Assembly: GCA_021804785.1 (NCBI GenBank)
Contig: JAJZGY010000005.1
Coordinates: 1-64,000 of the forward strand
DNA length: 64,000 nucleotides
DNA from: Pseudomonadota bacterium
GTDB taxonomy: Bacteria; Pseudomonadota; Alphaproteobacteria; Micropepsales; Micropepsaceae
Reading direction: 5' to 3'
The translations under genes were made by a program, and so were the position numbers. Positions within the stretch are counted from its first letter, which is position 1; the number at the start of each line of letters is the position of its first letter. Below, in pieces: positions 4,665 to 6,362 of the stretch. The notes under the pieces are model-generated. The model worked only from the letters and a program-made list of their open reading frames with translations. It searched no databases and was not told the DNA's origin.

Positions 4665-6362
4665 ATGACCGTACCGTTGCGCGCCGCCCTCTATCTGCGC
4701 GTCTCGACGGCGCGGCAGGCCGAGCACGATGTCTCCATCCCCGACCAGAAGCGCCAGGGTGAGGCTTATTGCGAGGCGCGGGGCTATCAGTTCGTCGAGA
4801 CCTATGTGGAGCCGGGCGCGTCGGCGACCAACGACCGTCGGCCCGAGTTCCAGCGCATGATCGAAGCGGGCACGTCCAGGCCCGCGCCGTTCGATGTCGT
4901 TGTGGTCCATAGCTTCTCGCGCTTCTTCCGGGACGCCTTCGATATGGAGTTCTACGTCCGCAAGTTGGCGAAGAACGGCGTCAAGCTGCTGTCGATTACC
5001 CAGGAGATCGGCGACGATCCGGTGCATCAGATGATGCGGCAGATCATGGCGCTGTTCGACGAGTACCAGTCGAAGGAAAACGCCAAGCACGTCATGAGGG
5101 CCTTGAAGGAGAACGCCCGCCAAGGCTTCTGGAATGGCTCGCTGCCGCCCATCGGCTACCGTGTCGTCGCGGCCGAGTAGCGCGGGGCCAAGACCAAGAA
5201 GAAGCTGGAGATCGACCCGCTCCACGCCGAGACGGTGCGCCTGATCTACCGGCTGGCGCTTCACGGAGACGGCGCCAAGGGCCAGATGGGCGTCAAGAAC
5301 ATCGTCAGCTATCTCAACCGCAACCGCATCTTCACCCGCGACGGCGGCCGTTGGGGCATCGGCCAGGTCCACCGCATCCTGACCCGGCGCACCTATATGG
5401 GCGAGCACGAGTTCAACAAGCGGTTCAAGAGCAAGGAACTGAAGCCAGTCAGCGAGATAGTGGTCGTGCCGGTACCGCCGATCATCGACCGCGAGACTTT
5501 CGACGCGGTGCAGAAGCTGCTGAAGGCCCGGCACCCCGCGATGACGCCCTCCGCTGTCGTCAGCGGCCCAACCCTCCTTACTGGCCTCATTCATTGCGCC
5601 AAATGTGGAGGCGCTATGACCATCCGCACCGGCAAGGGCGGGCGCTATCGTTACTATGTCTGCTCCATGAAAGCCCGGCAGGGACCGACCGCTTGCGAGG
5701 GCATGGCCGTACCGATGGATAAGTTGGACGATCTTGTCGCCAGCCATCTCGAAGATCGCCTGCTTCAGCCCGAGCGGCTGGAAACGATCCTCGCCACTGT
5801 GCTCGACCGGCGGCAGGAGCGATCCGAGCGCCAGCGCGAGCACATCGCCGAGTTGAACAAGCGTGCGGCGGAATCCGAAGCGCGCCTCAAGCGTCTCTAC
5901 GATGCTATCGAAGCAGGCGTCGCCGATCTCGACGACCCGGCGCTCAAGGACCGCATCGACGGCCTCAAAGCCATCCGCGATCAGGCGAAAGCCGACGCCG
6001 AGCGCGCCCAAGCCATTCTTCAGAACTCAGGGAGCCAGGCAGTCACGCTGCAGATGCTCAGCAAATTCGCCCGTACCGCGCGCCAGCGTATACGGCTCGA
6101 AGGCGGTGGCTACCGCCGTGACCATCTTCGCGCGCTCGCCCAGCGCGTCGAGGTCGCCGAAGGCGAGGTTCGTATCATGGGATCGAAGTCCCGGCTGCTC
6201 CAGACGCTCGTGGCGAACGGTGGCGCAAACGCGGTGCCCACGCAGGGACTGAAATGGCGGAGAGGGAGGGATTCGAACCCTCGATACCCTTGCGAGTATG
6301 CCGCATTTCGAGTGCGGTGCTTTCAACCGCTCAGCCACCTCTCCGAGCTCATTACCAGCTAA
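4665..6362 (+). pseudogene. large serine recombinase with in-frame amber codon
   Basis: Site-specific recombinase of the large serine type. The resolvase domain spans residues 1 to about 150, with nucleophile Ser14 in YLRVSTARQ and the SFSRFFRDAFD segment. The recombinase domain follows, then a zinc ribbon (C311, C314, C333, C344) and a coiled coil at about 380-450. TAG at 5178-5180 interrupts the frame after residue 171. Translation continues in the same frame, and CAG to TAG is the simplest origin. Both halves otherwise look sound, so decay is recent, unless the codon is read through or is a sequencing error. The last 30 or so codons run antisense through tRNA-Ser, marking the element's end. 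Confidence 0.85.
6255..6344 (-). tRNA. tRNA-Ser (CGA)
   Basis: A 90-base tRNA with the long variable arm of class II serine tRNAs. The acceptor GGAGAGG pairs with CCTCTCC, with discriminator G and CCA encoded (TGG at 6255-6257 on the plus strand). The anticodon loop CTCGAAA gives CGA, which reads UCG. The T arm GGTTCGAATCC is standard. It lies inside the 3' end of the recombinase frame on the opposite strand, so it is the likely attachment site of the element to its left. Confidence 0.95.

Follow-up and report, generated by a model that had tools for sequence, protein, structure and literature searches.

Large serine recombinases that appear to target tRNA-Ser genes irrespective of anticodon through an attachment site at the end of their own gene

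Introduction

Serine recombinases that insert at tRNA-Ser genes are rare but already known, as in phage phiRSM. The available text of a paper on mycobacterial AICEs describes serine recombinases at tRNA genes as rare and cites phiRSM at tRNA-Ser (PMC3218068). The attP/attB core of this Ralstonia filamentous phage is given as 5'-TGGCGGAGAGGGT-3', which corresponds to the inverted 3' end of tRNA-Ser(UCG) (PMC3816273, PMC4471427). Going by its published description, phiRSM Int resembles the enzyme considered here in being a serine recombinase with the same tRNA-Ser target and the same first core letters. In contrast to that enzyme, phiRSM Int is described as a small resolvase/invertase-like recombinase on a phage (PMC3816273, PMC4471427), its attP lies between orf14 and orf15, and one tRNA-Ser is named, as against four isoacceptors here. 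The AICEs of Mycobacterium, as the same text presents them, likewise have serine recombinases at a tRNA gene, but their target is tRNA-Leu, a single gene, and they are actinobacterial (PMC3218068). In the Dehalococcoides islands, as far as the consulted account goes, the ssrA repeat is embedded in a dsiB homologue; these islands share with the present element a CcrB-like serine recombinase, an RNA-gene target and an att repeat within the recombinase gene, and differ in their tmRNA (ssrA) target, a second serine recombinase (DsiA), and other host bacteria and cargo (PMC3146451). A Paracoccus phage is also described, in the text available, as having a serine recombinase and a predicted site at tRNA-Met.

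Among solved structures, the best sequence relatives (PDB sequences) are the SPbeta YokA and A118 integrases (E 4e-14 and ~2e-6), which are also large serine recombinases. To our knowledge, no tRNA site is known for either. The Mx8 IntP and SSV integrases are tyrosine recombinases. Both have an integrase gene that spans attP, as here, and the Mx8 paper, going by its title, reports that the C-terminus of the integrase changes on integration (both as cited in PMC4383910). In the literature covered, namely titles and openings of abstracts among the matches listed, with subscription journals mostly outside that coverage, we found nothing on an alphaproteobacterial family of this kind or on isoacceptor-blind target choice.

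Here we analyse a window of 64,000 nucleotides (contig C54:1-64000) that begins at the start of its contig in a draft genome of 3.29 Mb in 171 contigs. A first-pass annotation had considered a serine enzyme at a tRNA gene unusual, and this holds; among the rare precedents is one that sits at tRNA-Ser and shares the core letters. We consider it very probable that positions 1804-6260 are an integrated 4.45-kb mobile element whose large serine recombinase joins attP to the 3' end of any tRNA-Ser, attP being embedded in the 3'-terminal part of that enzyme's gene, the tail of which is exchanged on integration. The features of the element are listed in Table 1.

Table 1. Features of the integrated element and its attachment target, in window coordinates
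Feature	Position	Strand	Basis
attL core TGGCGG	1804..1809	+	Only left-end pattern match in own genome, 2 mismatches; reversed control 0
Element left end, predicted half of attP; recombinase frame reads WRATTDDDEHYVCALAL and stop	1804..1857	+	Sequence, translation, coding test on relatives
VapC-like PIN toxin	1858..2235	-	PF01850, E 8.7e-8; NCBIfam VapC model below cut-off
VapB antitoxin	2232..2483	-	PF09957, E 9.6e-16
Fic/DOC family protein, winged-helix match	3084..4271	+	PF02661, E 4.2e-16
74-aa ORF directly before recombinase	4419..4643	+	No Pfam/NCBIfam match
Serine recombinase, catalytic half	4665..5177	+	PF00239
In-frame TAG in linker	5178..5180	+	Sequence; Gln codon in 75/80 relatives
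Serine recombinase, DNA-binding half	5181..6362	+	PF07508; zinc ribbon ~5574-5750; antisense through tRNA, ends at TAA
tRNA-Ser(CGA), attachment target	6255-6344	-	ARAGORN; Rfam 62.5 bits
attR core TGGCGG, reverse complement of tRNA 3' end CCGCCA	6255..6260	+	Sequence; 76 right ends compared

Results

The recombinase belongs to a family that is widespread and, by record titles, mainly alphaproteobacterial. From a scan of genome contigs we took the best 80 of 291 relatives, which show 81-95% identity over the DNA-binding half. Among these best 80 of 291, 61 have a minus-strand tRNA exactly 25 nt past the base aligned to window position 6230 (ARAGORN), and the tRNAs are Ser with anticodon TGA (21), GGA (18), CGA (13) or GCT (8), plus one Arg(CCG). 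Counting the window, 60 of 78 junctions carry the frame on into DSNP, the translation of antisense tRNA. The first-pass annotation had described a frame running antisense through tRNA-Ser(CGA) to a stop just past it; since 61 of the best 80 of 291 relatives have the tRNA at a fixed phase, this reading is a property of the family and not an accident of one locus. The 76 right ends are kept up to the core and are mostly tRNA beyond it. No tRNA was called in 19 of the 80 relatives; in 3 of them the available DNA stops no more than 32 nt further on, and others diverge past the core or past a longer tRNA fragment. The right end of one of the relatives, L020, continues into the element's own left-end sequence, and that of L054 into a variant of it. 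Separately, in L045, L048, L036 and L052 the recombinase end is followed by tRNA 3' fragments of varied length and then by other DNA, perhaps because other elements subsequently inserted at that tRNA.

The left end can be recognised from L020, in which the recombinase frame stays open beyond TGGCGG, reads ATTDDDEHYVYAVAL and then terminates. Other recombinases have this stretch too, ~10 kb upstream and with unrelated DNA in front of it, and from it we derived a left-end pattern that was searched with up to 3 mismatches allowed; a peptide search for the tail had recovered 6 loci only, and the DNA pattern was used in its place. Among relatives' genomes the pattern was found in 30 of one set of 40 and in 25 of a second set of 35 (54 of 74, one genome being in both sets), with no match in the reversed control of either, in a search set that excluded L092 as well as L062, L082, L088 and L097, each of which shares its organism, by record title, with another locus. 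It gave no match in the other 20 of the 74 genomes, nor at the two other family copies of the window's own genome (contigs C92 and C36), and some matches have an imperfect core, such as TCCCGG or TCGCGG. The only match in the own genome, with two mismatches, is at window 1804-1844, which places attL inside the window. The first-pass annotation had suggested looking for attL to the left of the window, as a direct copy of the tRNA 3' end; such a copy exists, but it lies within the window and is direct over the 6-bp core only.

The element accordingly runs from 1804 to 6260 with TGGCGG at either end, the core being the 6-bp stretch of identity that both ends share. It has a tRNA at one end and the matching core at the other, and the tRNA is intact (ARAGORN), as in other tRNA-integrated islands. 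Read in reverse, the core comprises the CCA end, G73, C72 and C71 of the tRNA, so insertion would restore the tRNA. The two ends, the core and the tRNA targets can be read directly from the DNA, and the earlier proposal that attachment takes place at the tRNA 3' end is supported by the cores and by the tRNA phase in relatives; that the recombinase catalyses integration and excision we infer. Across 63 distinct left ends the host flank carries ~0 bits per column, and conservation on the element side extends over ~52 bp and then stops altogether; the first 41 bp coincide with the search pattern, so that what follows them is the independent part. Element lengths, taken from coordinates for 45 hand-picked pairs, are 3.7-43.9 kb with a median of 12.4 kb in the 43 that could be sized, and for 18 of 20 fetched stretches the contig is as long as the record with the recombinase.

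The DNA directly left of 1804 is itself repeated: a 171-bp direct repeat, 91% identical, occupies 1-171 and 1637-1807, its second copy finishing at the left core of the element. The first copy is followed by a stretch that by eye weakly resembles a tRNA-Ser 3' end, and the 1.5 kb between the copies holds a RelE-like/HTH pair. These repeats possibly represent an older element of an accretion array, or else an assembly effect, since the contig begins there.

Empty sites were found within the genus: seven loci there have tRNA-Ser(CGA) near rlmJ, as does the window (rlmJ at 10267-11082), with no recombinase within 1.5 kb of the tRNA (3 kb examined), and no recombinase was seen at any of 19 same-genus tRNA-Ser loci checked, some of which are cut by contig ends. 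An intact locus lacking the tRNA in related genomes had been named beforehand as counter-evidence to the insertion; what the same-genus genomes have is the tRNA-Ser(CGA) without the recombinase. Further afield, the flank found to the left of a Rhizobium freirei element comes within ~8 bp of a tRNA-Ser(GGA) in another Rhizobium (L208), and the flanks of this pair are 84-85% identical on either side of the insertion; R. freirei has 333 further bp between left flank and element, so this is not a perfect empty site. A clean empty site was sought for Brucella and Xanthobacter and none was found. Between tRNA-Ser and rlmJ the window has a stretch of ~3.9 kb (6345-10266) that is lower in GC and contains disrupted sulfatase-like frames, unlike the seven same-genus relatives, in which the two genes are close together. 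Elsewhere in the own genome, close to the end of contig C72 (L002 / L013), tRNA-Ser(GCT) adjoins an ORF that is presumably DNA cytosine methyltransferase-like.

Taken in the recombinase frame, the left end varies mostly at third positions. Outside the search pattern, 81 of 114 changes in the tail are synonymous (71%, against 40% expected), compared with 16% and 4% in the other frames; a looser set with the proximal anchor only gave 54% against 30% expected, and distinct tails 50% against 30%, all of these being counts over sequences that share ancestry and are not independent. Of 65 left ends, 35 reach their first in-frame stop at codon 17 and 26 at codons 18-23. Because the integrated tail sits kilobases from the gene, after unrelated host DNA, selection on it would have to act in a circular or tandem form. 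The joined gene is present in frame in L020; this contig has no exact terminal overlap, and its joined site may therefore be a tandem junction. No joined attP was found in IMG/VR by exact pattern, and MT839362 and MT839898 were rejected as circles, the terminal repeat being absent.

In the mechanism that we propose, the large serine recombinase would recombine attP with the tRNA-Ser 3' end, whatever the anticodon, at the 6-bp core TGGCGG common to both sites, and insertion would leave the tRNA restored. With attP located within the 3' end of the recombinase gene, the gene in a circular or tandem element would close with a short conserved tail, ~15 residues after KWR, and after integration this tail would remain behind at the element's distant left boundary, the gene now reading on across the tRNA in antisense. 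A complete gene is probably confined to the circular or tandem form, integration trading its last ~15 codons for antisense tRNA. It is conceivable that the left-end tail is conserved only as a DNA binding arm of attP and is not a translated C-terminus. The attP arms do resemble inverted repeats around the core (for the window halves, 16 matches at centre 4 and 5-10 at other centres), a symmetry that is modest (consensus p ~0.018), and part of the tail mirrors the other arm (GCGTAAAC..AGTG, inverted). However, the third-position bias in the recombinase frame continues beyond that arm, outside the search pattern, and is not seen in the other frames, and we regard a binding arm alone as an unlikely account of the tail. 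The native tail (..YAIAL) might be likened to an ssrA-type degradation tag. That reading was set aside because 26 of the 65 tails stop 1-6 codons later, which would bury it.

The window copy of the gene is interrupted. As the first-pass annotation had noted, a serine recombinase is split here by the single TAG at 5178-5180: the ORF at 4665-5180 (171 aa) matches Resolvase (PF00239, E 1.2e-31), and its in-frame continuation, 393 aa starting at 5181 and closed by the stop at 6360-6362, matches Recombinase (PF07508, E 6.4e-18) and Zn_ribbon_recom (PF13408, E 5.1e-17), so that the Pfam domains of a large serine recombinase are all present, in two halves parted by one codon alone. The sequence LRVS, which we take to be the catalytic serine motif, is also present. 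With the NCBIfam CcrB model, whose cut-off is 900 bits, the halves scored 79.4 and 63.8, short of membership of the SCCmec Ccr group. A predicted structure of the L020 recombinase had a mean pLDDT of 56.9 and a pTM of 0.29, with ~26-28 in the tail, and the putative coiled-coil region appeared as long helices at low confidence.

No stop or frameshift lies between the matched pieces in 76 of the 80 relatives, some of which end early at contig ends. At the codon aligned to the window TAG, 80 loci have CAG (63), CAA (12), TAG (1) or other triplets (4), the single TAG among them belonging to L083, a copy without a normal N-terminus. Uninterrupted copies occur in the same genus at other tRNA-Ser genes; one same-genus copy, L236, has several stops. 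The other two family members in the own genome are broken too. On contig C92 (L009 910-2584) a recombinase 57% identical reads antisense into tRNA-Arg(ACG); it has a TAA in the same linker, seven codons upstream of the place of the window TAG, and its 3' end is swapped for a sequence shared with contig C36. The C36 copy (L004 1-1062) is a recombinase fragment fused in frame to another C-terminus, and the shared end sequence there abuts tRNA-Ser(TGA). We assume this fused C-terminus to be transposase-like. A fourth PF07508 protein, on contig C17, is uninterrupted and only distantly related.

Judged against these relatives, the amber codon is a private inactivation of the window copy, and the recombinase is to be regarded as a pseudogene. 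The element is most likely stranded, because the TAG is private and the C92 and C36 copies are broken as well, and with its recombinase a pseudogene through the TAG it is probably immobile unless served in trans. Stranding had been proposed earlier on the strength of the antisense reading through the tRNA; the proposal stands on other grounds, but that reading is not evidence for it, since the tRNA is read in the same way in relatives whose frame is unbroken. A draft genome in 171 contigs could harbour a sequencing or assembly error at the TAG, the copy being in fact intact, which we think quite improbable given that the other two family copies of the genome are independently broken, as fits real decay. 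Programmed expression of a full-length recombinase by readthrough or suppression of the TAG is more improbable still and was rejected, as was reassignment of TAG: the window sequence after the TAG is all intact, L083 has TAG at the same codon and C92 a stop seven codons from it, but 75 of the 80 relatives (best 80 of 291) have a Gln codon there, L083 and L236 are decaying copies, and TAG is an ordinary stop in this DNA because it closes 12 of the 51 long open frames of the window.

Cargo was scanned in 76 ORFs of 14 elements, comprising 73 of 85 listed relatives' ORFs and 3 window proteins. Among the matches listed (25 of 43 Pfam families) were 5 MobA/MobL, 5 AAA_30 and 2 TraD, and others among the matches listed (25 of 43 Pfam and 25 of 372 PADLOC families) were to restriction-modification or toxin families. 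Ten large ORFs checked included MobA/MobL with RecD-like helicase domains in L037, L050, L070 and L086 and a VirD2-like Relaxase in L032; ORFs checked from L035, L040 and L047 gave no match, and the small elements L031 and L083 carry DNA methylase or specificity domains. Several larger members (~10 kb) look like integrative mobilizable elements because they carry relaxases; the window element has no relaxase among its proteins and does not class as one. Its frame at 2790-3050 presumably resembles the N-terminus of an IS5-type transposase. The 74-aa ORF directly before the recombinase may be a putative directionality factor; a homologue stands ahead of the recombinase in 16 of 80 loci (best 80 of 291), one of them weak, and as a universal factor it was rejected. 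That the recombinase is a passenger in an island put at the tRNA by another, tyrosine integrase is very improbable: tyrosine integrases serve most tDNA islands, according to the consulted text of PMC4383910, but here the element ends coincide with the recombinase gene end and its in-frame tail over 63 distinct left ends, and no tyrosine-integrase family is among the 25 Pfam families listed of 43 matched in the 76 ORFs of 14 elements.

Discussion

The choice among tRNA-Ser genes does not follow the descent of the recombinase. On a tree of 62 recombinases, isoacceptor changes numbered 32, against 33.3 for shuffled labels, and 62 of 200 shuffles gave a number as low as this. Recombinases that do not differ in the columns used stand at different isoacceptors: L068 and L071 at TGA and CGA, and L055, L061 and L060 at GCT and GGA. 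Isoacceptor choice is, as far as these sequences tell, unrelated to recombinase phylogeny. The motif TGGCGGA-N8-GATTYGAAC occurs in 3, 4 and 4 places in the own genome, Bradyrhizobium BTAi1 and Xanthobacter YC-JY1, respectively, and all 11 places are tRNA-Ser, so the shared tRNA-Ser 3' end would suffice to explain the target. The tRNA-Ser(TGA) of the own genome carries TGGTGGA and is not matched by the motif. More distant relatives stand at tRNA-Arg, the C92 copy at Arg(ACG) and L246 and L267 at Arg(CCG), and all of these have TGGCGC instead of TGGCGG. It appears, from the loci compared here, that this is a large family blind to the anticodon which lands at serine tRNA genes.

The conservation of the tail is observed in the left ends; any role for it would lie in the difference between the two forms of the gene. 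We suggest, tentatively and as the less probable outcome, that the gene has two states, the copy in the circle carrying the conserved ~15-residue tail after KWR and landing swapping in an antisense-tRNA peptide that alters the activity, direction or stability of the enzyme, so that the protein would record the integration state and help to lock the element in.

These recombinases would be natural serine integrases with a predictable target, a conserved tRNA 3' end present 3-4 times per genome in the three genomes searched. They would also offer an experimentally accessible example of an enzyme that is reshaped by the reaction it carries out, in which a tail under apparent coding selection is cut off by integration. 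Annotators should be aware that C-termini taken from integrated copies of this family are antisense tRNA.
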